NCBI RefSeq assembly: GCF_003056345.1
Contig: NZ_PYWB01000003.1
Span: 124,001 to 188,000 of the forward strand
Reading direction: 5' to 3'
From: Devosia submarina
GTDB lineage: Bacteria > Pseudomonadota > Alphaproteobacteria > Rhizobiales > Devosiaceae
DNA: 64,000 nucleotides
In this document: piece by piece, positions 21,151 through 63,988 of the stretch
Numbering within the stretch: position 1 is the first letter of the stretch
Layout: each line of letters starts with the position of its first letter
Made by a program: the position numbers and the translations under genes
The notes under the pieces: generated by a model
The model's input: the letters and a program-made list of their open reading frames with translations, nothing else
Databases searched by the model: none
What the model was told of the DNA's origin: nothing

Positions 21151-21806
21151 TGCGCAGAGCGCCGGTCAATCCGCGAAAGCTGTTGACCGGTCTCGGCCTC
21201 GCGGCCGGCACCGCCGGATTGCTGCTGGAGTTCGTCCTTTCCATGCAGGTCTCGCTGGCCATGGGACGGGACCTTCCCGGCGCGTTGGGCAGCTTCTTTT
21301 CCTTTTATACGATCCTGACCAATATCGTTCTGGTCCTGATCTATCTTTCGGACATGCTGCCCAACCAAAGGCTCGCCATTTTCCGCAATTCGATTCTGCG
21401 TGGATCCATGGTCGCCTGCATGGCTTTGGTGAACCTCTACGTTTTCTTTGTCTTGCGTCACCTTTATGCTCCAACGGGCCTGCTCGAACTCTCCGATAAG
21501 TTGCTGCACTATGTAACGCCGCTGCTGTACCTACTGTGGTGGATTGGGGGACAGCCCCACGGCAAGCTTCGCTGGAGCAATCTTCCCCTTATGCTCCTGC
21601 CGACATTTGTGTACTTCGTCCTTGTCATGATGCGGGGACTTTGGGTTCATCGCTATCCCTATCCATTCATGAACGTCGATGAACTGGGCTTGGGTGCCGT
21701 GCTCGTTGGAGCGGTGACCATGGCCGCGGGTCTCGCCGCCCTCGCAGCCCTGGTGATTGCCCTCGACAACTTCCTGACGCGCAACTGGAACCTTGTTCAT
21801 GACTAG
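21150..21806 (+). CDS. Pr6Pr family membrane protein
   Basis: A 218-residue protein with about six transmembrane helices. The pattern LGSFFSFYTILTNIVLVLIY near residues 48-67 and DKLLHYVTPLLYLLWW near 110-125, with the conserved His, match the Pr6Pr/FAR-17a-like membrane family of unknown function. The ATG shares a base with the purQ stop, so translation is coupled. It lies between purQ and purL, which are normally adjacent. The function is unknown and any link to FGAM synthase is speculative. Confidence 0.85.
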   Translation: MRRAPVNPRKLLTGLGLAAGTAGLLLEFVLSMQVSLAMGRDLPGALGSFFSFYTILTNIVLVLIYLSDMLPNQRLAIFRNSILRGSMVACMALVNLYVFFVLRHLYAPTGLLELSDKLLHYVTPLLYLLWWIGGQPHGKLRWSNLPLMLLPTFVYFVLVMMRGLWVHRYPYPFMNVDELGLGAVLVGAVTMAAGLAALAALVIALDNFLTRNWNLVHD

Positions 21807-21875
21807 GAACAAGCCCCTGAACGCCCAAACGTAACCGGAATATTTTCCAGAGCCTCCCCACGGAAAAGACTCTTG

Positions 21876-24110
21876 ATGACCTACCAGAACCACATCGCCA
21901 TCACGCCCCAACTCGTTGCCGATCATGGGCTCAAGCCCGACGAGTTCGAAAAGATCGTTGCGCTGATCGGCCGCCAGCCGACCTATACGGAGCTGGGCAT
22001 CTTCTCGGCGATGTGGAACGAGCATTGCTCCTACAAATCGTCCAAGAAGTGGCTCAAGACTCTCCCGACCACTGGCCCACGCGTGATCCAGGGTCCAGGC
22101 GAGAACGCAGGTGTCGTCGATATTGGCGATGGGCAGGCAGTGGTCTTCAAGATGGAATCCCACAACCACCCCAGCTTCATCGAACCCTACCAGGGTGCGG
22201 CGACCGGCGTCGGCGGCATTCTGCGCGACGTGTTCACCATGGGCGCTCGTCCGGTTGCAGCCATGAACGCGCTGCGCTTCGGCTCGCCTGACCATGAAAA
22301 GACACGCCATCTGGTTTCCGGCGTTGTCGCCGGCGTCGGTAGCTACGGCAATGCTTTTGGCGTGCCGACCGTGGGTGGCGAAGTCGAGTTCGACGAACGC
22401 TATAATGGCAACATTCTGGTCAATGCCTTTGCCGCGGGCCTCGCGGACACCGACAAGATCTTCTACTCGAAAGCTGAAGGTGTCGGCCTCCACGTTGTTT
22501 ATCTCGGCGCCAAGACCGGACGTGATGGTGTCGGTGGCGCGACCATGGCGTCGGCCGAGTTCGGTGACGACATCGAGGAGAAGCGCCCCACGGTTCAGGT
22601 TGGCGACCCGTTCACTGAAAAGCGTTTGCTTGAAGCCTGCCTTGAACTGATGGCCACCGGTGCCGTGATCGCCATCCAGGACATGGGTGCCGCGGGTCTT
22701 ACCTGTTCGGCCGTTGAGATGGGTGCCAAAGGCGACCTCGGGATCGAACTCGATCTCGACAAAGTGCCTGTGCGCGAAACCCACATGACCCCTTACGAGA
22801 TGATGCTGAGTGAAAGCCAGGAGCGCATGCTCATGGTGCTGCACCCTGAGAAGGAGGCGGAAGCACGCGCCGTGTTCGAAAAATGGGAGCTGGACTTTGC
22901 CACTGTCGGCAAGACCACGGACGATTTGCGCTTCCGCGTTCTCTGGCAGGGCGAGGAAGTGGCGAACCTTCCCATCAAGGAACTGGGTGACGAAGCGCCG
23001 GAATATGATCGTCCCTGGACGCCCTCCGTACCAGCTCCCGCTCTGGCGGACGATGACGTGCCGCAGATGGATGTTGCCGACGCCCTCCTCCAGCTCATGG
23101 GCGGCCACCAGATTGCTTCGCGCCGCTGGGTCTACGAGCAGTACGATACTCTGATCCAGGGTAATTCCATGCAGCGCCCTGGCGGTGATGCCGGAGTGAT
23201 CCGTGTCGATGGTCACCCCAACAAGGGCCTGGCATTCACCTCGGACGTTAATCCGCGCTATTGCGAGGCCGACCCCTATGAAGGTGGCAAGCAGGCCGTT
23301 GCCGAAGCCTGGCGCAATCTGACGGCGACGGGCGCCGAGCCACTGGCCGCCACCGACAACCTTAATTTCGGCAATCCCGAACGTCCCGAGATCATGAGCC
23401 AGCTGGTGCATGCCATCAAGGGGATCGGCGAAGCCTGCCGTGCGCTGGATTTCCCGATCGTTTCGGGCAATGTGTCGCTCTACAACGAAACCAACGGCCG
23501 GGGAATTCTGCCAACCCCGACTATTGGCGGTGTTGGCCTGCTGCCCGATTGGACCAAGATGGCACGGATCGGCTTCGCCGCCGAGAACCAGATGATCCTC
23601 CTCGTCGGCGCTCCGCCTAAGCGCGGCACGCATCTGGGCCAATCCATTTACCTGCGCGATCTCCATGGCCGCCGCGATGGTTCGGCGCCCCATGTCGATC
23701 TTGCTCATGAGCGCCGCACTGGCGACTTCGTACGCAAGCTGATCCGCGACGGCGTTGCGACCGCCGTTCACGATCTTTCCGATGGCGGCCTTGCAGTGGC
23801 ACTCGGGGAGATGGCCGTGGCATCCGGCATTGGCGCGACCATTGCTGACCTCAACGGCCAGGATCCGATCCTGCAATATTTTGGCGAGGATCAGGGCCGC
23901 TATCTTGTCACCGTTGATCTCGATCCGCAGGGCGATGAAATCCTCTCGCTGTGGAACCAAGCTGAGCAGCTTGGCGTCTTTGCGCCCTGGATCGGCACCA
24001 CCGGAGGAACCGATCTGATCCTCGGCGCCGCGCGGCCAGTGCCGGTGGCAGACCTCAAGGCAGCGCATGAAAGCTGGTTCCCCAGCTATATGGATGGGGT
24101 GATCGCCTAA
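21876..24110 (+). CDS. purL: phosphoribosylformylglycinamidine synthase subunit PurL
   Basis: The 744-residue small-type PurL makes FGAM from FGAR, ATP and ammonia supplied by PurQ. Hallmarks include [17 protein letters not shown] (about residues 38-54), [20 protein letters not shown] (about 92-111) and the repeated AIRS-like halves with [12 protein letters not shown] and [14 protein letters not shown] 21876 is preferred over TTG 21873. Long form PurL (about 1,300 residues) carries its own amidotransferase; this one needs PurQ and PurS, both present. A BolA gene follows after 80 nt. Confidence 0.97.
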
Positions 24111-24190
24111 GGTTGGCTTGAAGCCCAGGGTACCCTGCCATATCTTGGAAGAGTCGGCGCACTCAGCCGCCTCTTGCCAGGAGTTATGCC

Positions 24191-24424
24191 ATGCCCATGG
24201 AAGCCAACGAAATCGAACGCCGCATCCAGGCCGCGCTGCCCGATGCCACGATCGAAATCCGCGACCTTGCCGGTGATGGCGACCACTGGGCCGCCACGGT
24301 GATCTCGGAACAGTTCCGCGGCAAGTCTCGCGTGCAACAGCATCAGATTGTTTATGCAGCCTTGCAAGGCGACATGGGCGGAGCACTGCACGCGCTCGCT
24401 CTGCAAACCGGTGTGCCCGAGTAG
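24191..24424 (+). CDS. BolA family protein
   Basis: A 77-residue BolA/YrbA-type protein. The core is recognisable: IERRIQAALPDATIEIRDLAGDGDHWAA with the conserved loop His at about residue 31, then VISEQFRGKSRVQQHQIVYAAL. These proteins bind a [2Fe-2S] cluster together with CGFS monothiol glutaredoxins and take part in iron regulation or Fe-S maturation. A CGFS glutaredoxin is encoded 1.05 kb downstream on the same strand, which supports partnership. ATG 24191 and ATG 24197 are both possible starts. An AGGAG lies 10 nt before the first. Confidence 0.92.
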   Translation: MPMEANEIERRIQAALPDATIEIRDLAGDGDHWAATVISEQFRGKSRVQQHQIVYAALQGDMGGALHALALQTGVPE

Positions 24425-24429
24425 CTCCC

Positions 24430-24750
24430 ATGTCGCTGCGCGACTCGCTGGACCTGATCCGGGCCGTTCGCCCGGACGCCGGAACGGCGGCGATCGAGCA
24501 CGAGATCGTTGCCGAGCGCGCTTCTTCGCTAGGTGCGGCCGAGCGCAAGGTCGTTGCCGCCATGGCTGCACTCTCCAGCGCAGAAGCCGACCGTGACGCG
24601 GCGCTTTCCGCAGCTCGCCTTGTCGTCTGGGAGTATTTTGTGCAGCGTGAACTCATCGGCTTTCGCAAGCATGCTGATGTGATCCAGGAGCTCAAGATAA
24701 CAAGCGAAGTGCTTGCTGGACTTGGCGCAATCGACAGAACCAGGCGGTGA
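24430..24750 (+). CDS. DUF6665-like hypothetical protein
   Basis: A 106-residue helical protein without membrane segments or known catalytic motifs. Its pattern, EIVAERASSLGAAERKV in the first half and VVWEYFVQRELIGFRKHADVI in the second, resembles the DUF6665 family of alphaproteobacteria; this is recognition from memory and moderately sure. It begins 5 nt after the BolA gene and its TGA overlaps the GTG start of the HAD gene (GTGA). Being between bolA and grxD hints at a role tied to iron-sulfur metabolism, but that is only context. Confidence 0.7.
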   Translation: MSLRDSLDLIRAVRPDAGTAAIEHEIVAERASSLGAAERKVVAAMAALSSAEADRDAALSAARLVVWEYFVQRELIGFRKHADVIQELKITSEVLAGLGAIDRTRR

Positions 24751-25382
24751 GCCGCGCCGTCATTTTTGACGTCGATGGCGTGTTGATCCACGGCATGCAC
24801 GCCAACCCAGCCTATGTGCGGCGATGGGACAGTGAGTTGCTCGCTGATTTGGGCGTCGATCCGCAGCGTTTTGTGTCTGAGTTCATCTACGACATCTTCC
24901 TCAAGCGCGTGGTGACCGGGCAGGTCTCGATCATCGAAGCGCTGGAACGGCGCCTGCCGGGCCTTGGCTACAAGGATTCGCCCATGGCTTTCCTTCATTA
25001 TTGGCTCAAGCGCGACAGCGAGCTGAACCAGCCCCTGCTCGAAGCTATCCGGCGGTTGAAGATGGCAGCAGATGTGCGCTTGTATATTGCAACCAACCAG
25101 GAGCACATGCGTGCGCACTGGCTCTGGAGCCATCTAGGCTTTTGCGATCTGTTTGAGGACATCTTCTATTCCGCCCGCATTGGCGTCCGGAAACCCGACC
25201 TAAGGTTCTTCCGCTTCGTCGACAGCAAGATAGGCCCGCAGGAACAGCCTCCATTGTTTTTCGACGATACGCCTGCGGTGATCGCCGGTGCACAGGCGGC
25301 TGGTTGGGACGCCGTCTTGTTCAACACCCTTCCCGATTGCGCCGATCACCCCTGGATCAGGCGGCATATCGCATCATCGTGA
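24747..25382 (+). CDS. HAD family hydrolase
   Basis: A 211-residue haloacid dehalogenase-like phosphatase. Motif I is DVDGVL at residues 8-13 with nucleophile Asp8 and acid Asp10, motif II is probably the Thr of IATNQEH near 110-116, motif III the Lys of GVRKPDLRFF near 148-157, and motif IV is FFDDTP near 170-175. The cap insertion lies between motifs I and II. The substrate is not predictable. The GTG start overlaps the stop of the upstream gene, so it is cotranslated with it. Confidence 0.88.
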   Translation: MSRAVIFDVDGVLIHGMHANPAYVRRWDSELLADLGVDPQRFVSEFIYDIFLKRVVTGQVSIIEALERRLPGLGYKDSPMAFLHYWLKRDSELNQPLLEAIRRLKMAADVRLYIATNQEHMRAHWLWSHLGFCDLFEDIFYSARIGVRKPDLRFFRFVDSKIGPQEQPPLFFDDTPAVIAGAQAAGWDAVLFNTLPDCADHPWIRRHIASS

Positions 25383-50745: not shown

Positions 50746-51141
50746 CTAGTTCAGGTCACGCGCATAGGTCTTTAGGATTTCGAGCGGAATAAAGCCGAGA
50801 ACCTTTTGGTTGGTGGCGCGCAGGAACACGCGCGGCGCCTCCTTGGCCTCGTACGCCTGCCACCAGCGCTGCGCCACAAGGCACCAGCGATTTCCGGCCA
50901 CCAGTCCCTTAAAGCCGAACTCGGGCCTGGGTGTCGAAAGGTCATTCCCCACCGATTGGGAATAGCGCAGAAACGCATCGCTGGCTTCGATGCACACCAG
51001 ATGCACAGCAGCGCTGTCAGGCCCTGCTGCACAATACCCGGTGCGGAAAAAGCCGGTTAAGGGATCGCTTGAACAAGGCTGCAGGGGCTCGCCGAGCACG
51101 TTGAACTCGGCAGGACCCTCAAAGCGCCCCTGCTCGTTCAA
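50746..51141 (-). CDS. DUF2237 family protein
   Basis: A 131-residue protein of the DUF2237 family. The whole chain follows the family: NVLGEPLQPCSSDPLTGFFR (13-33, in part), GYCAAGPDSAAVHLVC with cysteines, GNDLSTPRPEFGFKGL and GNRWCLVAQRWWQAYEA. No function is established. Conserved Cys residues at about 23, 37 and others could bind metal or form disulfides. The ATG overlaps the cckA stop by four bases (ATGA), so it is translationally coupled to the cell-cycle kinase gene. Confidence 0.9.
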   Translation of the reverse strand: MNEQGRFEGPAEFNVLGEPLQPCSSDPLTGFFRTGYCAAGPDSAAVHLVCIEASDAFLRYSQSVGNDLSTPRPEFGFKGLVAGNRWCLVAQRWWQAYEAKEAPRVFLRATNQKVLGFIPLEILKTYARDLN

Positions 51142-53708
51142 GCCGAGTCACCCTTGCCCAGCTTTTGCAGCACTTCCTTGACCTTGGAATTGATCTGGTC
51201 GAGCGAATAGGGCTTTGGCAGAAATTCGACGCTTTGGTCGTCCTCTATGTCCCGGCGTACGCTTTCCTCGGCGTAACCAGAAACAAAGATCACCTTGAGA
51301 TTGGGCATTGACTCGCGCACGTGGCGCAACAGCGTCGGTCCGTCCATTTCGGGCATCACCACGTCCGAAATCATGAGGTCGATCTTGAAATCGAGATCTT
51401 CCAGCACCTCAAGCGCTTCCTCGCCGCCATCGGCCTCGAACACCTCATAGCCCGTTGCGCGCAGAGCCCGAGCGGAGAACGCACGCACGCTTTCCTCGTC
51501 TTCCACAAGAAGGATCCGCTCATGTCCCGTAAGATCCTTGACCGGCGCCACCCCGGCGGCCTTGCCCGCAGCTTCGGCGGCACTCACCACATGGCGCGGC
51601 AGGAATATCTTGAAGGTCGTCCCGACCCCGACGGTAGAAACGGGATAGATATAGCCCTCGGTCTGCTTGACGATGCCATATACCGTGGACAGTCCAAGCC
51701 CCGTACCCTTGCCCAATTCCTTGGTGGTAAAGAACGGCTCGAAGATCTTCTCGATGACTTCGGCCGACATGCCCGTGCCGGTATCCTGCACTTCGATCAG
51801 CACATAATCGGCCGGCACCATGCCTTCAAAGCTCATGCCGCCAACTTCGGCTTCCGCGACATTGGCCGTACGGATAGTGATGGCGCCACCATTGGGCATG
51901 GCATCGCGGGCGTTCACCACCAGATTGATGATGACCTGCTCGAGTTGCACCACGTCGGCGCGTACCGGCCAGATATTGCGGCCGTGCTCGACTGATAGCG
52001 TGTTCTTTTCCCCGATCATACGCTTCAGCAGAACCGTCAGATCGTCCACAATAAGCGGCAGTTCCAGCACCTGCGGGCGCAGTGTTTGTCGGCGCGAAAA
52101 CGCCAGCAGTTGACGCGTCAGGCCAGCGGCACGATTGGCGTTTTGCTTGATCTGCATCAGCTCGCCGAACGAGGGATCGCCCGGCTTGTGCTTGAGCAGC
52201 AGGAGGTCCGAAAAGCCGATGATGGCCGTCAGCAAATTGTTGAAGTCGTGCGCGACGCCACCGGCCAATTGCCCCACAGCCTGCATCTTCTGCGACTGGG
52301 CAAACTGCGCCTCGAGTTTGCGCTGGTCGGTCATATCGAGCGCATAAACATTAACCTGCTCGGGCGAGCCGGCGCTCATCTCCGATGCGGAGAGGTAAAG
52401 GCGTACGGCATGTTCGCCTTCTGCGCTCAGAAGCGCATCGACTGGCTCGATTTCGGAGCGATGTGCCGCAGCGTCGGCGAGGGCACGGGCGAATTTCTCG
52501 CGGCTGCCTTCACCGATCAACTCGGTGAGCGGCTGCATTTCGAGACTTTTTTCCTCGCCCGACCACTTAAAGATGCGCCCGAACGGCGCGTTGGTGCGGA
52601 TGATCCGTCCTTCTGCATCAAGGGTCGCGATGGCAAACGGCGTGTCGTTAAAGAAGCGCGAGAATCGCACTTCTGCCGCTCGCAATTCTTCTTCGGTATC
52701 CGGCGCATTGGATTTGTCGAGCACCAGCGTGCGCGTCTCGCCAAGTTCGCCATCCGCCAGCCGGGCTGCGCGGTGCAGCAGCCGCACAGGCAGGCTGGTG
52801 CCATTCCGGCGGACAAGGTCGATATCGATGATCTCGGTATGGATTTCCCCATCGCGCCGGCCGCGCATCAGCAGCGTCGCGCCATCGCCGCGAACAATGT
52901 CCGACATGCCAAGATGCCCGGAATTGAACTCGGCCAGATCATACCCTAGCCAGTCCGCCAGCGTGGAGTTGAGATATTGAATGCGCCCATGCGCGTCGGC
53001 CGAGAAAAAGCCGGCCGGCGAATGATCGAGATAATCAATGGCGCGCTGCAGGTCGCGAAACGCACTCTCATTGTTGTCCCGGTCGCGGGTAATGTCCTCG
53101 ACCGACCAGATCACCAAAGGTTTGCGCGCCTCGTCGGACTCGGGCAGCGGGCGCACACCCACGCGATACCAGAAAGCCTTGGAGCTGTCGGGAGCGTGTC
53201 CGCCCAAGCCACCCAGCACGCGAACATCCTCAACAGCGGCTCTTCCATCCTTGGCGGCGCGTGAAAGACGGTAGATCGCCTCGCTGGCATCGGCCTCGCC
53301 GGCAAAAAGTCGGGGCACGCCTACGGGCACGCCATTGGTTACAGCCCCCGAGAAACTGCCGTAATGCGCGTTCACATAGGCGATCTTGCCATCACGGTCG
53401 GCCACCACGGCGCCAAAGGGCAGGCTGTCGACAACAGCATTGGAAATCGTGCGGCGCTCTTCGCCATTGGCGAAGCGAAACAGGCCAGCAGCCAGTGCGA
53501 AGAGGCAAAACACGCCCACCACAGCCAGCACGCCCACAAAGGTCATCACCAGTTCAGGCGAAATCTGACTTCCGAACACAGAGAACACGACGGCAAGCGC
53601 AACAAGAAACACCCCCAGCACGAGCACGCGCCACAAGCCTGCGCTGCCACGACCAGCGGAAAGCAGTGGGTCGGGGTAATTGTCTTCGCCGATGGGCGCC
53701 GATGCCAT
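51138..53708 (-). CDS. cckA: cell-cycle hybrid histidine kinase CckA
   Basis: An 856-residue hybrid kinase. In order: two membrane helices near 29-70 ([17 protein letters not shown] and [18 protein letters not shown]), PAS domains over about 90-450, the HisKA phosphoacceptor His487 in [10 protein letters not shown], the HATPase with the GTGLGLSTV box, and a C-terminal receiver with Asp782 in [13 protein letters not shown]. CckA phosphorylates ChpT, which passes phosphate to CtrA and CpdR. The flagellar genes next to it carry a CtrA box at 57446. The gene heads a cckA-DUF2237 transcript; 163 nt separate it from flhB upstream. Confidence 0.95.
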
Positions 53709-57566: not shown

Positions 57567-58226
57567 ATGCAGTTCATCACGAGCCTCTTTGGTGGGTCGG
57601 GCAATAGCTGGATTACCATGCTGTTGGCCCTTGGCATCGTGGTGGTGCTGATCTTCCTGGCCGTCTGGCTGCTGAAATTCCTGTTCAACGCTTCGGGCAA
57701 TGTCTCGCGTGGTCGTCACAAGCGCCTGAGCGTTGTGGACAGTTTGGCGCTTGATCCAAAACGCCACTTGCTGATCGTGCGCCGAGACGATGTGGAGCAC
57801 CTGATCCTTGTCGGCGGCACGCAGGATCTGGTGGTGGAAACCGGTATCCCGGTCCTCGAAGAGCAGGCTACCCAGCCCACCCGCCGGCCCGTGCCCATGG
57901 TCGCCTCCCGCCGTCCGGCGGCGGCAAAAAACGCGGCGCCCCCCGTCGAGACGCCCACCCACGCTGCCGTCAAACCTCTTTCGCCCGGCCCTGCGACAGT
58001 GGCCGACCAGCTGCGCGAAATGGGCCAGCCCACGGACAAGAAGACCCATCTTTCGCTGCGTCACACGGGCCTGCTTCGCCCCGTCAGCGAGATCGAGCCC
58101 ATTGTAGCTGCTGAAAACTCGGTGATCCCCAGTGGCGCGGATCGCGACTCAGCTAAAGAAGGCAGAGCGCAACGCGATACCGAAGGCAGCGATATTGGTG
58201 GCAACCACGGGGCAAACCGGATTTAA
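57567..58226 (+). CDS. fliO: flagellar biosynthesis protein FliO
   Basis: A 219-residue protein with the FliO architecture: a short N-terminus, one membrane helix (MLLALGIVVVLIFLAVWLLK near 18-37), then a basic FliO domain (RLSVVDSLALDPKRHLLIVRRDDVEHLILVGG, about 52-83, in part) and a Pro/Ala-rich disordered tail. FliO helps assemble FliP in the export gate. ATG 57567 has GGAG 5 nt upstream. Its last codons overlap fliP by 29 bases. Confidence 0.9.
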   Translation: MQFITSLFGGSGNSWITMLLALGIVVVLIFLAVWLLKFLFNASGNVSRGRHKRLSVVDSLALDPKRHLLIVRRDDVEHLILVGGTQDLVVETGIPVLEEQATQPTRRPVPMVASRRPAAAKNAAPPVETPTHAAVKPLSPGPATVADQLREMGQPTDKKTHLSLRHTGLLRPVSEIEPIVAAENSVIPSGADRDSAKEGRAQRDTEGSDIGGNHGANRI

Positions 58227-58992
58227 GCCTTTGCGCCAGCGCCGGTTCTTGCCCGTCGCAGGGCTGCTTGTCCTCTTTCTGGCACTAGCGCCTAGCTTTG
58301 CCTTCGGGCAGGACGTGTCGATCGATTTTGGCGACGATACGACCATAACCGAACGTGCCGTCCAGATCATCGGGCTTATCACGCTCCTGTCGCTGGCGCC
58401 CTCCATCCTCGTGATGGTGACCAGCTTCACCCGCATCGTGGTGGTGCTCTCGCTCCTGCGCACCGCCATTGGCCTGCAGACCGCGCCACCCAATTCGGTC
58501 ATGGTGTCGCTTGCACTTTTCCTCACCATTTTCGTGATGCAGCCCACGCTGCAGCAAACCTATGACGTCGGCATCGCACCCCTGCTGGCAGGCGATATCG
58601 AAATTGCCGAAGCCTTCGAGCTCGGCAGCGCCCCGCTGCACGAGTTCATGCGCGCCAATGTGCGCGAACAGGACCTGTCCCTGTTCTATGACCTGACCGA
58701 CGCCGTCCCTCCGGACGAACCCGAAGCCATCCCGCTGCAGCTGTTGATCCCCGCCTTCATGATTTCGGAACTGCGTCGGGCCTTCGAGATCGGCTTCCTC
58801 TTGTTCCTGCCCTTTGTCGTCATCGACATGGTCGTCGCATCGGTGCTGATGGGCATGGGCATGATGATGCTCCCGCCGGTGGTGATCTCACTGCCCTTCA
58901 AGCTGATCTTCTTCGTGCTGGTGGACGGCTGGTATCTGGTTGCCGGATCGCTTGTCCGCAGCTTTGTCAGCGGAACAACAGGCGCAGGCTAA
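58198..58992 (+). CDS. fliP: flagellar export protein FliP
   Basis: A 264-residue export-gate subunit with a cleavable signal peptide (FLPVAGLLVLFLALAPSFAFG near 20-40). The FliP core is clear: RAVQIIGLITLLSLAPSILVMVTSFTRIVVVLSLLR and the later AFMISELRRAFEIGFLLFLPFVVIDMVV (in pieces). The start is uncertain: GTG 58198 gives a normal length and sits after GAAGGCAG, whereas the open frame begins with GTG 58132 and would overlap fliO by 95 bases. The stop is adjacent to that of the convergent TPR gene. Confidence 0.92.
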   Translation: MATTGQTGFKPLRQRRFLPVAGLLVLFLALAPSFAFGQDVSIDFGDDTTITERAVQIIGLITLLSLAPSILVMVTSFTRIVVVLSLLRTAIGLQTAPPNSVMVSLALFLTIFVMQPTLQQTYDVGIAPLLAGDIEIAEAFELGSAPLHEFMRANVREQDLSLFYDLTDAVPPDEPEAIPLQLLIPAFMISELRRAFEIGFLLFLPFVVIDMVVASVLMGMGMMMLPPVVISLPFKLIFFVLVDGWYLVAGSLVRSFVSGTTGAG

Positions 58993-61900
58993 TCACCCTG
59001 CGCGGGCGGCAACAGCACCCGGCTGGCTCGCTGTCATGGGCGCCAGCGCCCCACCGGAACCATAAGTCTCGCGATAGGCTGCAAGAAAGGCGTTGATCCC
59101 TTCAAGCCCTGACACTTGGCTAGCCACCGTTTTGAACTCAACGCTCGTCACCGAGATATTGCCCGTCACCAGATCGAACATAGGCCATTCCGGCGTGGTG
59201 ACCATGGCCTCGCCGAACTTGGAACGCAGCCGCGCCAGTCCAAACCGGTCATCAGCCAGAACATAGCCAACGGCAGCCTTGATCAATCCCATCCGCGCCT
59301 GCTGGCTGCGCGTAATGTCACTGGGATCGGTATAAAGCGCCTCGATCATTTCGCCGGCTTGCGAATAGCGCTTGGCCTTCCACTGCGCATCGATCCGCAG
59401 CTGCGCCACATCGCTCCCTTCCATCTCCCTCAACATATTAAGGGCTAGCTGATCGCGTCCCCCGTCGATCATGGCCCGCGCTTCCAGCACCCGCCGCTGT
59501 CGTGCCAGGGTCGCGGGCATCTCGGGCAACCGCGTCGCATTGAGCACACGCAGGGCTTCTGTTGGCTTGCGATCTGCAAGGTAGATCACCGCCAGATCAG
59601 CCGCCACCTGGGTCCTCGCGACACCACGCAGCCGGTTCTCAAGCTGATACTCCAGAAGAACAGCCGCCTGGTTCAGCAGATCAACCCGCACCAAGCGCCG
59701 TGCCAAATTCCGGATCATTTCATCGCCACGCGCTCCCGGTGGCGTCAGGGCTCGGAAATCGTAGTAGAGCCCCAGCGCTTTCACCGGCGCCAAGGCATCA
59801 GCCGTACCGTTCAAAAAGAGGTCTGCAAATACTTCCTGCGCATTGTCGCGCAGAGCGTTGACTTGCGGGCTTTCAGGGTAGGTGCTGACCGCCTGCTGCA
59901 CGGTTTCAAATCCGGCGCGGTAATCACCATCGCGGAAAAAGAAATCGGCAAGCATGTTGAGCATGTCAGCTTCGAGCGGATTGCCCCTCCAGAGCAAGGC
60001 TTCCGCCCCCAGGGTCTCGGCCGCCTTGTGAAGGTTGAGCTTGCCCGCCTTGTCCAGCACGTGCAGCGTGCGGAAAATCGCCTCGGCCCGAGTAGGCCGT
60101 ACGTCGGCCGCAATGACTTGACCATAGATGTCGATTGCCTCGTCCGCCCGCCCCTGCAGCTCGGCAATGCGTCCATTCATAAGCAGGTAAAGGCTGGCGC
60201 CTTCGGCATCCAGACTGGTGAATTCCATGCCATCGAGCAATTGTTCGGCCATGCGAGCATCGCCCGTTTCAACAGCCGCCCGGATTGCGGCAAAGGTGAA
60301 GCGGTTCTGCACCCAAAGTGGATAGCTGGCGACAACAGGCAACGCCGCCAAGGCATCTACCTTGGCGCCCTTGAAATCGGATACATCAGCCCGGGCGATC
60401 GCGCGCCAGATCAGCGCGTCGATCTCGTTGCCGAGGGCCGCCTGGTTGAGAACATTGAGCGCATCACGGCTGCGGCCAGCCAAGGCATTCGCCATGGCGC
60501 GCGCCAGCAACATTTTGCGCGTCAGCTTGTCGTCCTTGAGCTCGGCCGCGAGCACATCGAGCACGCCGACCGCTTCAAGGCCAAACTGGTTGGCGATAAG
60601 AAACTGAGCCAGATCAAGCCGCGTCTGGTCACGCTGGCGTCCTTCGGCGCTAGCCGCCTGCATCAGCAGTTGGTTTTGCTGCTTGCCGAATTCGGCCAGG
60701 TCGCGCTGCTCCAGCCGCGCGAGGTCAACGAAGCTCCCTCGCATGGCGTCGTTGAGGCCCGTTCCTGCGACCCGCTGCCCTTCCAGTTCGGACACGGTCA
60801 ATCCATCTGGGGACGAGATCACGGCAAGCGTGTTCTCGATCGCCAGATCGACATCTTCGGTCTTGGGCTTGAGCACAAGCCCATGCACACTGCGCAGGGC
60901 TGAAAAGTCCACATAATCCAGCGTGCGCGTAACCCCGCGTGCGGGTGGATAGGCCGTGACGACCTTGAGCATGTCGCCCACGACGGGATCGCGGAAGTCA
61001 TGTGCCCGAGCCGGCCGCGCCACATCGGCAACCAGCTCGAAATCTCCTTCGACATCTCTGCGGCGCGACATGGTAATGGGCTCGGTCGGCGTCAGCATGA
61101 TGTCGCCCAGCGACAGCACCCAGGCCATTCCTTCCGAACCCAGCGTTGCCAGCCGATCCTGCGACAGGTCGATCCGCACGACCTGCGTATCGCCGGCCGC
61201 AACCACCTCAAACGTGCTGGCGATCGCATCGAATTCTTGCGAGCGCGCGGGCGGCACGACACCAGCTACCGTGTCAAAAATCATCCAGACGCTGTCGCCC
61301 CGCCGGAACACAGCTGCAGGCGTATCCTGTTCAAATGGGAAAACCACGCGAACGGTCGAGCCAAGCACGCTGACAAACGGCTCCACCGTTTGCGTCGTCA
61401 ATTGTGGTTTGAGCTTGTCGACAAAAGGCGCCGAATAGGGGGGCAGCCCGGCAGCACTGTCGCTTTCTGCCTCAAGCGGCACAAGGCTGGCAGCAGCAAA
61501 GGAAGGACGCCCCTCTCCGGCAATGTCGATGTCGAGGATCTGCTGCGCTGGCGTGTTCTGGTAAAACCGGGGCGTAACTTTTGGCGCAAGCTTGAGCGCA
61601 ATCATGGTCCCGTCGGGAGTAACTTCCGGCTCCACCGCGAGGATCTCGGGCGGCAGATCGGCCAGAAGTTCGTTCAGATCAATCTCGACCGGCCATTCGA
61701 ACGCGAGCATGCCCTCGTTTTCAAGCTGGGCATAATTGGCACTGGTCGGCACAGTCCAGTCGAACTGAAGGCGCAGGAAAGTAGGGTTCCGCCCGATCCG
61801 GACACTGGCCTTGGGGTCCAGCTCCGCCACTCCCTTGGCCTTACGTTCCTGCTCAGCCCGGATCGCTGCCAGCCGCGCCCGCTCAGCCAACTCATCTATG

Positions 61901-62337
61901 ATGTCCTGTGGCAAGGTGGGAGGCATACCCTGCCAGCTTGTGGGCAGCAGGTCGATAAAGAGCTTCTCGCCCGCTTCGATCCTGTTGAACTTGAACGCGG
62001 AGCGCAGCCCGAGGCGAAGCCCCCTTCCGTCTGGATCGACCCGCGCGACCGAAAGATAATCCGGCATGGTCGAGCCGACATCAGGCAGCAGCACCGACAC
62101 TTGCTCGCTGAACTCAAGGGAGAGCACGCCATTCTCGAGGCGCATCTGGTATTCCGGCAGGCTGTCGCGACCGGGGAAACTCAGTATCAGCCGGCCATAA
62201 CCCGCTTCTTCGGTGGCAAAAAGCTGCCCGTCGATCTGCGCATAAGCGGATTGCACAAGGCTGGACGAGGCGAGCATAGCGCCAAGCACAAGCGCTCGTA
62301 GGGCTTTTGTCCACCCAGCCTTCTCAGCAGTCTTCAC
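58993..62337 (-). CDS. large secreted TPR protein beside flagellar genes, uncharacterised
   Basis: A protein of about 1,114 residues that I cannot place in a characterised family. It has a signal peptide (hydrophobic ALRALVLGAMLASSSLVQSAYAQ near 12-34), then beta-rich AMIN-like segments (YGRLILSFPG; LRLGLRSAFKFNRIEAGEKLFIDLLP) to about residue 450, and a long helical C-terminal part with TPR-like repeats (for example LYLLMNGRIAELQGRADEAIDIYGQVI; MLADFFFRDGDYRAGFETVQQAV). GTG 62337 gives a proper signal peptide; the frame reaches 62418. It lies between fliP (convergent) and motE, so a flagellar or motor role is likely but inferred. Confidence 0.85.
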   Translation of the reverse strand: MKTAEKAGWTKALRALVLGAMLASSSLVQSAYAQIDGQLFATEEAGYGRLILSFPGRDSLPEYQMRLENGVLSLEFSEQVSVLLPDVGSTMPDYLSVARVDPDGRGLRLGLRSAFKFNRIEAGEKLFIDLLPTSWQGMPPTLPQDIIDELAERARLAAIRAEQERKAKGVAELDPKASVRIGRNPTFLRLQFDWTVPTSANYAQLENEGMLAFEWPVEIDLNELLADLPPEILAVEPEVTPDGTMIALKLAPKVTPRFYQNTPAQQILDIDIAGEGRPSFAAASLVPLEAESDSAAGLPPYSAPFVDKLKPQLTTQTVEPFVSVLGSTVRVVFPFEQDTPAAVFRRGDSVWMIFDTVAGVVPPARSQEFDAIASTFEVVAAGDTQVVRIDLSQDRLATLGSEGMAWVLSLGDIMLTPTEPITMSRRRDVEGDFELVADVARPARAHDFRDPVVGDMLKVVTAYPPARGVTRTLDYVDFSALRSVHGLVLKPKTEDVDLAIENTLAVISSPDGLTVSELEGQRVAGTGLNDAMRGSFVDLARLEQRDLAEFGKQQNQLLMQAASAEGRQRDQTRLDLAQFLIANQFGLEAVGVLDVLAAELKDDKLTRKMLLARAMANALAGRSRDALNVLNQAALGNEIDALIWRAIARADVSDFKGAKVDALAALPVVASYPLWVQNRFTFAAIRAAVETGDARMAEQLLDGMEFTSLDAEGASLYLLMNGRIAELQGRADEAIDIYGQVIAADVRPTRAEAIFRTLHVLDKAGKLNLHKAAETLGAEALLWRGNPLEADMLNMLADFFFRDGDYRAGFETVQQAVSTYPESPQVNALRDNAQEVFADLFLNGTADALAPVKALGLYYDFRALTPPGARGDEMIRNLARRLVRVDLLNQAAVLLEYQLENRLRGVARTQVAADLAVIYLADRKPTEALRVLNATRLPEMPATLARQRRVLEARAMIDGGRDQLALNMLREMEGSDVAQLRIDAQWKAKRYSQAGEMIEALYTDPSDITRSQQARMGLIKAAVGYVLADDRFGLARLRSKFGEAMVTTPEWPMFDLVTGNISVTSVEFKTVASQVSGLEGINAFLAAYRETYGSGGALAPMTASQPGAVAARAG

Positions 62338-62474
62338 CGGCTTCTGCCCGCCCGACGCAATTCCCGTATGCCGGACTTGGCCGATTTCTGGGCCGCCATG
62401 CACGCAAGGGTACAACACTCAATGCGTGCACCCTAGCGAGCCCAGCTTAACGTCGCCTTACACTTGGGAACGCC

Positions 62475-63557
62475 CTACTGCCCCACGATTTGCGGCAGGG
62501 CAGCAAGGTCATCCGCCGTCATCTGCGCTGCCGGGCGGTCGGCCAGGGAGGCCATCTTGACCGTCAGCTCCTGCGCCCGGGCCGGATCCATTGCCGCCAG
62601 GATCGGCGCCATCTTTCGCGGGCTCATGGTCTTGGCTACGCGCAGGAGCACTTCCATGTCGAGATTGTTGAAAATCCCCGCGGCGTCCTTGGGCTTCATG
62701 GTTTCGTACATCGCCACAATCCCTGCGAACTGACCCGATTCCATCTCCGTACGCTGGTCCACCAAGGCTGAAATCTGCGCCTCAAGTGCTTCCAGCGTTG
62801 CCGCCCGTTCCTCGATCCGCTTTTCGGCAGCATCCACAATGGATGCGCGAAGGGCCAGATCCTGTTCGTACTTCTCCAGTGCCGTGCGCCGCTCAGCCAA
62901 ACGTTCCAGCAATTGCTGTTCGCTCAACGCCGTACCGCCGCTATTGCTCAGGGGAGCAGTGCCGCCCTGGCCGTCGATCACAACGGGAATGGCGTCGCCG
63001 CTCTCCAGGCACTCCGTCATGGACTGGGCAAAGCTTGCCTCGCCTTGAGTTGCCGTTTCCGGCTCGGCACCGTGGCCGCCCTCTTCAGCGGGCGGATTGT
63101 TCAGCGTCACGACGCCATCTTCATCGATCTCTGCATCCGATTCGCGGCAAAAAGTCGTGCCCCCGTGAGCAACGGGCACTTCATGCCCGTTCTCACCGGC
63201 TGGATGTTCGGCCACATCTGCATCGTGCCCGCCTTCGGCAGCGGCTTCCCCATGTGCAACTGCTGCAGCAGGAGCGCCATGCCCACCAGCGTCGGCTTTG
63301 CCGGAAGCCAAGGTTGGGCTGGTATCAACAAGCGTTGGGCTGATATCCTCGATGGTGTGCTCGCCCGGCAGGGCCGCATCACCGCCCTCGCTCGCCTCTC
63401 CACCACTGCCATGCGCCGCCGGAGCCCCGGATGCAGCCTGTGCCACCCCAACACCGCCCAGCACATAGCCACCATTGGTGACCAGACCCAGGGTCTTGAG
63501 CACCAGCAGCGCGGCAATGGCCATCACGACGACGGGGAGCAGGCGGATCCTGTTCAC
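62475..63557 (-). CDS. motE: MotE-like protein with His/Gly-rich linker
   Basis: A 360-residue protein with an N-terminal membrane anchor or signal (LLPVVVMAIAALLVLKTLGLV near 6-26), a Gly/His/Ala-rich segment over about 40-170 (for example GGHGAPAAAVAHGEAAAEGGHD), a coiled coil near 215-275 and a C-terminal MgtE-N-like domain (YETMKPKDAAGIFNNLDMEVLLRVAKTMSPRKMAPILAAMDP, in part) as in MotE. In Sinorhizobium MotE is a periplasmic chaperone for MotC. The GTG start overlaps the DUF6468 stop (GTGA), so both are cotranslated. Confidence 0.85.
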   Translation of the reverse strand: MNRIRLLPVVVMAIAALLVLKTLGLVTNGGYVLGGVGVAQAASGAPAAHGSGGEASEGGDAALPGEHTIEDISPTLVDTSPTLASGKADAGGHGAPAAAVAHGEAAAEGGHDADVAEHPAGENGHEVPVAHGGTTFCRESDAEIDEDGVVTLNNPPAEEGGHGAEPETATQGEASFAQSMTECLESGDAIPVVIDGQGGTAPLSNSGGTALSEQQLLERLAERRTALEKYEQDLALRASIVDAAEKRIEERAATLEALEAQISALVDQRTEMESGQFAGIVAMYETMKPKDAAGIFNNLDMEVLLRVAKTMSPRKMAPILAAMDPARAQELTVKMASLADRPAAQMTADDLAALPQIVGQ

Positions 63558-63988
63558 GCAGCAGCTCCACGGGTCCGGACACGGCTCGACAATTGCTCAA
63601 GCGCCGACTGCACCTTGTTGGGCGTCTCAATCACTGGTTCGGCGACAACAGGGCTCTGGCGCGCTGCCGTCGTGATCTTGACGATGCGGTCCATCAGCAC
63701 CGTGCCGGCATTTACATGATTGGCCAGCTCGATCCCGAAGCGCTCGGCTTCTTCCAGCCGCGTGCTCAGCGCCAGATCAGCCTCTACAGCCGTCTGCTTG
63801 AGTTCCCTGATCGCCTGATTGGCCAGATTGGTGGCGCCAACCAGATCGGCAACCATCTGCCGCAGCACGTCCTTGTCGGCATGCAGGCGCTTGAGGCGCG
63901 CATTGAGGATGACGCAATAGCCAATTGTCAGCGCCAGCAGGATGGCAACGGCAGCTTCCACGACAATTCCAAACGGCAAGCCAAACAT
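63554..63988 (-). CDS. DUF6468 membrane protein, flagellar-linked
   Basis: A 144-residue protein with one N-terminal membrane helix (GIVVEAAVAILLALTIGYCVILNARLKRL, about 7-35, in part) followed by a coiled-coil stretch (ADKDVLRQMVADLVGATNLANQAIRELK). This is the DUF6468 pattern, found in alphaproteobacterial flagellar clusters, often near fliL and fliM; that placement is from memory. The molecular role is unknown. It overlaps motE by four bases. The start is close to the right edge of the window, so the upstream partner is not visible. Confidence 0.8.
   Translation of the reverse strand: MFGLPFGIVVEAAVAILLALTIGYCVILNARLKRLHADKDVLRQMVADLVGATNLANQAIRELKQTAVEADLALSTRLEEAERFGIELANHVNAGTVLMDRIVKITTAARQSPVVAEPVIETPNKVQSALEQLSSRVRTRGAAA

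Follow-up and report, generated by a model that had tools for sequence, protein, structure and literature searches.

A predicted secreted AMIN and tetratricopeptide repeat protein from the flagellar locus of Devosia submarina as a member of the FssB/MotK family and probable motor spoke

The gene at positions 58993-62337 (minus strand) of the analysed Devosia submarina DNA (64,000 nucleotides of contig NZ_PYWB01000003.1, hereafter the window) encodes a probably secreted protein whose place in the FssB/MotK family of flagellar motor proteins, as the Devosia (Hyphomicrobiales) member, is well supported. We propose, with a probability of roughly 0.8, that it is an alphaproteobacterial counterpart of the PflA spokes, standing between the MotE E-ring, the cell wall or a partner scaffold, and MotB, and that it keeps the stators engaged. 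Its resemblance to FssB and MotK therefore makes it a recognisable family member and not an unknown. An earlier reading made from the sequence alone (the sequence-only reading) considered it uncharacterised and knew of no experimental description; this must be corrected, as mutants of fssB (PMC7885107) and motK (PMC10954123) with paralysed flagella have been published. New here is sequence evidence: an alignment of the window protein with a Caulobacterales-like copy, and a family profile that extends to a MotK-type protein.

In Caulobacter crescentus, deletion of CC_2058 (CCNA_02137), named fssB, gave cells that made filaments and were non-motile, like a motB mutant, and fssB was required for proper stator activity (PMC7885107). 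MotK and MotE are periplasmic proteins needed for rotation, which interact with each other and with MotB2; the flagella of the Cereibacter motK mutant are paralysed, and MotK resides at the flagellated pole in a manner dependent on MotA2/MotB2 (PMC10954123). The same study proposed CC_2058 as a distant MotK homolog on the basis of fold, without BLAST similarity. A preprint (PMC11870540, 2025) and a review (PMC13023049, 2026) drew connections between MotE and the FlgY E-ring and between PflA and the proteins MotC, MotK, and CC_2058, the last two being proposed as PflA-like partners of the E-ring, a structure absent from E. coli and Salmonella (PMC13023049). In the Campylobacter jejuni scaffold, PflA, composed of an N-terminal beta-sandwich and 16 tetratricopeptide repeats (TPRs), forms the spokes, and PflB forms the rim (PMC12222027). 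Our literature search found no published work treating MotE together with fliM in Devosia.

Sequence family and domain architecture

Loci of relatives comprised the best 80 of 579 stretches confirmed by a profile search of genome contigs (L and G numbers below denote loci and genomes). The ten top-listed relatives are all recorded as Devosia (52-73% identity), followed lower in the list by Arsenicitalea, Pelagibacterium, Roseibium, Pleomorphomonas, and others. Alignment A3 contains 67 proteins from these 80 loci (72 frames met the length limit; L085, L110, L126, L145, and L147 were excluded), and alignment A4 contains 42 of the 67. BLASTP aligned residues 163-1104 of the window protein with the Caulobacterales-like copy from G123 at 30% identity over 965 columns (E 1.8e-92), the latter genome being typed by its CckA (75% to Caulobacter chain 5idj) and standing in for CC_2058. 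Ten genomes were screened by CckA; G064 and G176 were also measured against the Caulobacter chain and discarded. Members from Devosia, Sphingobium, Erythrobacter, and Azospirillum have invariant residues in common.

The link to MotK is more distant and more tentative. With filters off, the family profile matched the MotK-type protein from G082, assigned to this type by the gene order fliL-DUF6468-motE-motA-X and used as a stand-in for C. sphaeroides MotK, at E 1.3e-14 (52.3 bits, from which a bias of 18.2 had already been deducted), and hhalign gave a probability of 93.5. The next non-family frame among 11,102 reached E 0.2, and reversed decoys stayed at 0.27 or above. BLASTP with the window protein gave only 25.8 bits for this protein, which was also missed by default HMMER filters and by the class genome search.

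The gene and the parts of its product are as follows.

58993..62337, minus strand: fssB/motK-type gene, probably secreted AMIN-TPR protein of 1,114 amino acids (open reading frame, family profile, relatives, model)
62239..62337, minus strand: putative signal peptide, residues 1-33, with the site between AYA and Q (reading by eye; model helix 3-26)
61942..62235, minus strand: AMIN-like domain 1 (B1), residues 35-132 (model beta block; B2-related profile, hhalign probability 98.2)
61525..61809, minus strand: AMIN domain 2 (B2), residues 177-271 (fold match to the AmiC AMIN domain and PilQ)
61105..61383, minus strand: AMIN-like domain 3 (B3), residues 319-411 (model beta block; B2-related profile, hhalign probability 96.4)
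60814..61071, minus strand: fourth beta domain (B4), residues 423-508 (model; no relation to B1-B3 detectable)
59053..60699, minus strand: TPR-like superhelix, residues 547-1095 (model; TPR profiles in relatives; generic TPR folds)
59590..59991, minus strand: conserved stretch, residues 783-916, WRG ... LYYDFRALTPPGARGDEMIR ... QAAVLLEYQ (alignment columns)

The open reading frame runs from a GTG at 62337 to the stop at 58993 (1,114 codons); an alternative upstream GTG at 62418 would give a product of 1,141 amino acids. Read by eye, the N-terminus, VKTAEKAGWTKALRALVLGAMLASSSLVQSAYA followed by Q, resembles a Sec signal peptide. An AlphaFold model built from 68 sequences (mean predicted local distance difference test score, pLDDT, 89.3; predicted template modelling score 0.55) comprises a signal helix, the four beta blocks, and the helical superhelix. 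The first two blocks were also modelled apart, and B2 then matched the AMIN domain of AmiC (4bin, Z 12.3, root-mean-square deviation 2.4 over 99 residues) and PilQ (4aqz, Z 10.7) against a small-heat-shock-type background of at most 7.2. Profiles of B1-B3 are mutually related (hhalign probabilities 98.2, 96.4, and 80.2), and hhalign detected no relation of the B4 profile to them. Structure prediction, which the sequence-only reading had recommended, thus bears out its long TPR array and, for B2, its AMIN-like beta regions, and model helix 3-26 is in line with its signal peptide. The domain search recommended alongside gave a divided answer: Pfam and NCBIfam scans of the window protein returned sub-threshold TPR matches and nothing for the beta region, and among 22 aligned members TPR_2 was matched in 15 (best 2.2e-10) and an AMIN-like family (E up to 0.1) in eight, the window protein not being one of these eight.

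The N-terminal part varies among members. The window protein has three AMIN-like blocks plus B4, the Caulobacterales-like copy (a 962-residue frame) two plus B4, and the B-block profiles found none in the Sphingobium, Erythrobacter, and Azospirillum members; the B2-B3 linker ranges from 39 to 350 residues across the 68 sequences. Residues 783-916 hold many of the invariant columns of alignments A1, A2, and A3, which makes this stretch a candidate partner-binding surface and the first candidate for a contact with MotE.

FssB has the features predicted for the window protein, a Sec signal and TPRs (PMC7885107) and an AMIN-like N-terminus (PMC10954123), and its gene lies behind CC_2059, which encodes MotE (PMC13023049), but genes of this kind are given as 2-3 kb long with one AMIN domain at residues 36-132 (PMC10954123). 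MotK of the Cereibacter sphaeroides Fla2 system is a secreted AMIN and TPR protein encoded in a motE operon, and its N-terminus matched AmiC first and PilQ next (PMC10954123); it differs in its 652 residues, its single AMIN domain, and the motA gene between motE and motK, and the similarity of the MotK-type protein from G082 is seen by profile only. PflA of the C. jejuni proximal disk spokes is comparable in its N-terminal AMIN-like sandwich, linker, and 16-17 TPRs and is a partner of the FlgY E-ring (PMC13023049), but it has one beta domain and works with PflB.

Gene neighbourhood and co-occurrence with flagella

The following genes adjoin the fssB/motK-type gene.

62475..63557, minus strand: motE (E-ring, FlgY/FlbB type), upstream of the fssB-type gene (sub-cut-off matches to NCBIfam collar_FlbB and MgtE_N)
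63554..63988, minus strand: DUF6468 gene (PF20072, 71.8 bits)
58132..58992, plus strand: fliP, convergent neighbour (PF00813, E 8.2e-79)

The placement between fliP and a MotE-DUF6468 pair given by the sequence-only reading agrees with ours in coordinates and gene order. The minus strand reads fliL-fliM-DUF6468-motE-fssB type, with fliP convergent and its 3' end (58992) abutting the fssB-type stop. At the fssB locus of Caulobacter, the full order fliL-fliM-pflI is presumably the same. DUF6468 and motE overlap by four bases, and 137 bp separate motE from the fssB-type gene. The motE product matched collar_FlbB with 28.1 bits (E 1.6e-6), far under the model cut-off of 110, and MgtE_N with 23.6 bits, under the cut-off of 25.9. 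The DUF6468 gene, whose position matches that of pflI (PMC10954123), is probably pflI; among 14 control genomes, DUF6468 was detected in Caulobacter vibrioides only. The motA-motB genes of the host lie on a different contig of the 3.98-Mb genome.

The arrangement recurs in the best 80 of 579 loci. MotE was the nearest labelled upstream gene in 67 of the 70 loci whose upstream sequence exceeded 2.5 kb (no such label directly upstream in L108, L116, and L145), and convergent FliP came next downstream in 57 of 65 (not in the remaining eight). Among 20 loci picked by hand from the 134 class genomes positive for the protein, the frame immediately upstream was labelled MotB in 12; these labels come from an iterated hidden Markov model search that tells MotA and MotB poorly apart. 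The homologs of Azospirillum lipoferum and A. ramasamyi, annotated 'hypothetical protein', stand directly before motA-motB, and in Erythrobacter aureus the homolog is preceded, at a distance of a few genes, by fliL-fliM-DUF6468 together with a motE-like gene.

Across 61 relatives, the protein was found in 49 and FliP in 51 (both in 48, the protein only in one, FliP only in three, neither in nine). In 240 genomes of the class, the corresponding numbers were 134 and 151 (both 127, protein only seven, FliP only 24, neither 82), with a Fisher P of 2e-33, a value that overstates independence because related genomes share ancestry. Retention without flagella, which the sequence-only reading had named as a refuting observation, amounts, when gauged by a missing FliP match, to one of 49 relatives (G042, with DUF6468 present and FliP absent) and seven of 134 class genomes, all of them drafts. 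The seven are 64-96% complete, five at no more than 81% and the other two being G139 and G087; two carry marginal matches (E 9.5e-4 in G139, and 2.6e-5), and G087 holds a truncated copy. This copy (L161, 4413-6909) is flanked by a fliM fragment and by a frame resembling, by eye, part of a PAS protein, and the locus has the appearance of a remnant of a flagellar cluster since lost. DUF6468 occurs in four of the 24 FliP-only genomes (G082, G105, G212, and G243), in one of them below cut-off. G082, although counted there, carries the MotK-type gene, and in G105 no family member was found in the 1.3 kb that remain behind MotE on the contig.

A MotC-like gene was present in three of the 61 relatives (G037, G057, and G058), all flagellated and without the fssB-type gene, and was absent from all 49 relatives that carry the latter; the query came from G037 itself, typed by its position behind motB, and G057 and G058 matched it at E around 1e-10. 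These three genomes have motE between flgA and flgH, in keeping with the order flgI-motE-flgH of Sinorhizobium meliloti (PMC10954123). MotC of the S. meliloti type is also a periplasmic TPR protein and a MotE partner (PMC13023049); it differs in gene position, and the family profile does not reach the 422-residue MotC-like protein of G037 (8.5 bits, hhalign probability 7.6).

Proposed role and competing explanations

According to the proposed mechanism, the protein would be exported by Sec into the periplasm, where its C-terminal TPR superhelix would serve as a radial strut. The conserved part of the strut would dock on the MotE E-ring that encircles the MS-ring, and the AMIN-type domains at its outer end would attach to the cell wall, to a partner scaffold, or to both. 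The strut would thereby position MotB, so that MotA/MotB stators stay engaged, and in its absence flagella would be built and would not rotate. For the Devosia protein, we infer the spoke geometry, the contacts, and the wall binding, the phenotype and contacts being carried over by analogy from relatives. Structural comparison points the same way: of 350,542 chains in a PDB library, Foldseek ranked 9hmf_K, from the C. jejuni motor scaffold, first for the whole model (E 4.8e-10, 909 columns), a chain which is probably PflA because its length is 773.

Several points weigh against this proposal. The identity of 9hmf chain K is deduced from its length, TM-scores for the match are low (0.15/0.20), AlphaFold models underlie the fitted Calpha trace that served as the target, and 9hmf is absent among the 50 VIA-align rows listed for the whole model. 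Generic TPR likeness by itself reaches 33 bits against PDB chains. The comparisons with FssB and MotK rest at the sequence level on the stand-ins G123 (CckA) and G082 (gene order), and our literature search found no experiment on the Devosia protein. Of the 151 FliP-bearing class genomes, 24 gave no match (two candidates scored per genome), and G212 and G243 keep fliL, DUF6468, and motE together without an fssB-type gene beside them. The PflA linker and, in one paper, also the beta-sandwich bind PflB in C. jejuni, and wall binding is therefore not secured for the FssB/MotK family.

The strongest competing explanation, which we regard as unlikely yet deserving attention, is that the protein mainly works as an activator or adaptor of the stator, clamping MotB in the manner of MotC and having MotE for a partner or chaperone, and does not form a standing spoke on an E-ring. 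The restriction of the MotC-like gene to three genomes devoid of the fssB-type gene speaks for it, as do the frequent adjacency of motA-motB to the fssB-type gene, the description of S. meliloti MotE as a MotC chaperone (PMC13023049), and the reliance of MotK localisation on MotA2/MotB2 (PMC10954123). Against it stand the arrival of MotE at the flagellum without MotK or stator proteins (PMC13023049) and the motor scaffold chain 9hmf_K as the top fold match. The Caulobacter data on stator activity are compatible with a spoke and an adaptor alike.

The sequence-only reading had suggested a scaffold of the motor, the stator, or a polar structure. The first two options are supported by the motE and stator neighbourhood, the co-occurrence with FliP, and the PflA-like model, and for the polar structure we found no support. 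A wall-anchored scaffold of a pilus, a holdfast, or a pole organiser, incidentally located among flagellar genes, would agree with the presence of AMIN domains in PilQ and AmiC, but it is highly improbable given the occurrence of FliP in 127 of 134 genomes with the protein, the position behind motE, and the non-motile CC_2058 mutant. It is equally improbable that the protein is a generic TPR protein of the periplasm and resembles FssB, MotK, and PflA through repeat convergence: TPRs are alike in any case, a profile search of PDB sequences gave 35 matches at E up to 1, mainly designed or generic TPRs and without PflA (the A3 profile reaching E 1.6e-7 and 5.8e-6 on designed and natural TPR chains), and the VIA-align list contains TPR-type folds from proteins that are not related (Z up to 17.5, at least one fifth of the rows over residues 538-986), but the long alignments, such as the 965 columns shared with the Caulobacterales-like copy, disfavour this view, as do the invariant residues common to four genera and the distance between the MotK-type match and the next non-family frame and decoys.

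Returning to the spoke, we tentatively extend the proposal, while considering the extension somewhat less likely to hold than to fail. FssB, MotK, and the Devosia protein may form one sequence family that constitutes the standard alphaproteobacterial motor spoke, exchanged for MotC in Rhizobiaceae-type motors. The Hyphomicrobiales spoke, with three tandem AMIN domains on a linker of variable length, might be an adjustable arm tying the MotE E-ring and stators to the cell wall, and the WRG...LYYDFRxLTPxGxRGDEMI stretch might be the E-ring contact. Independently of this extension, a large gene with family members in 134 of 240 sampled class genomes becomes a motor part with known mutants, and its homologs in the annotated plasmid records that we opened are still labelled 'hypothetical protein'. 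For tests of the E-ring and spoke role in convenient laboratory strains, the analysis offers the profile of the family, the conserved stretch, and the natural exchange between FssB and MotC, and it predicts that Devosia motors have an E-ring and spokes.

Further observations

Plasmid flagellar clusters of Erythrobacter aureus and Sphingobium sp. V4 (L053 and L055) encode a short form of the protein with no detectable AMIN blocks, and the Sphingobium sp. V4 plasmid is typed conjugative by PLSDB. The fssB gene is broken into two or more frames in three Devosia records (L093, L094, and L119) and in L048 (G025), where the FliP match is broken too. The three Devosia copies were kept in pieces and read as probable sequencing errors or decay; the split copies may reflect either sequencing error or decay of motility genes. 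In G003, a 4.8-kb contig (L049, G003:C44) carries an additional fssB that is more distant (33% identity) and perhaps contamination (5% estimated).

The fssB-type gene is the largest in the window, as the sequence-only reading held, once the sole longer frame (21531-25133, minus strand, 1,200 amino acids) is discounted; this frame has no Pfam match at 1e-5, lies antisense to a 745-residue frame, and is probably spurious. Just downstream of flhB, positions 51138-53708 (minus strand) encode a CckA-like hybrid histidine kinase (PAS, HisKA, HATPase, receiver), and in G117 (L071) a kinase of the CckA-like type directly follows the fssB homolog.

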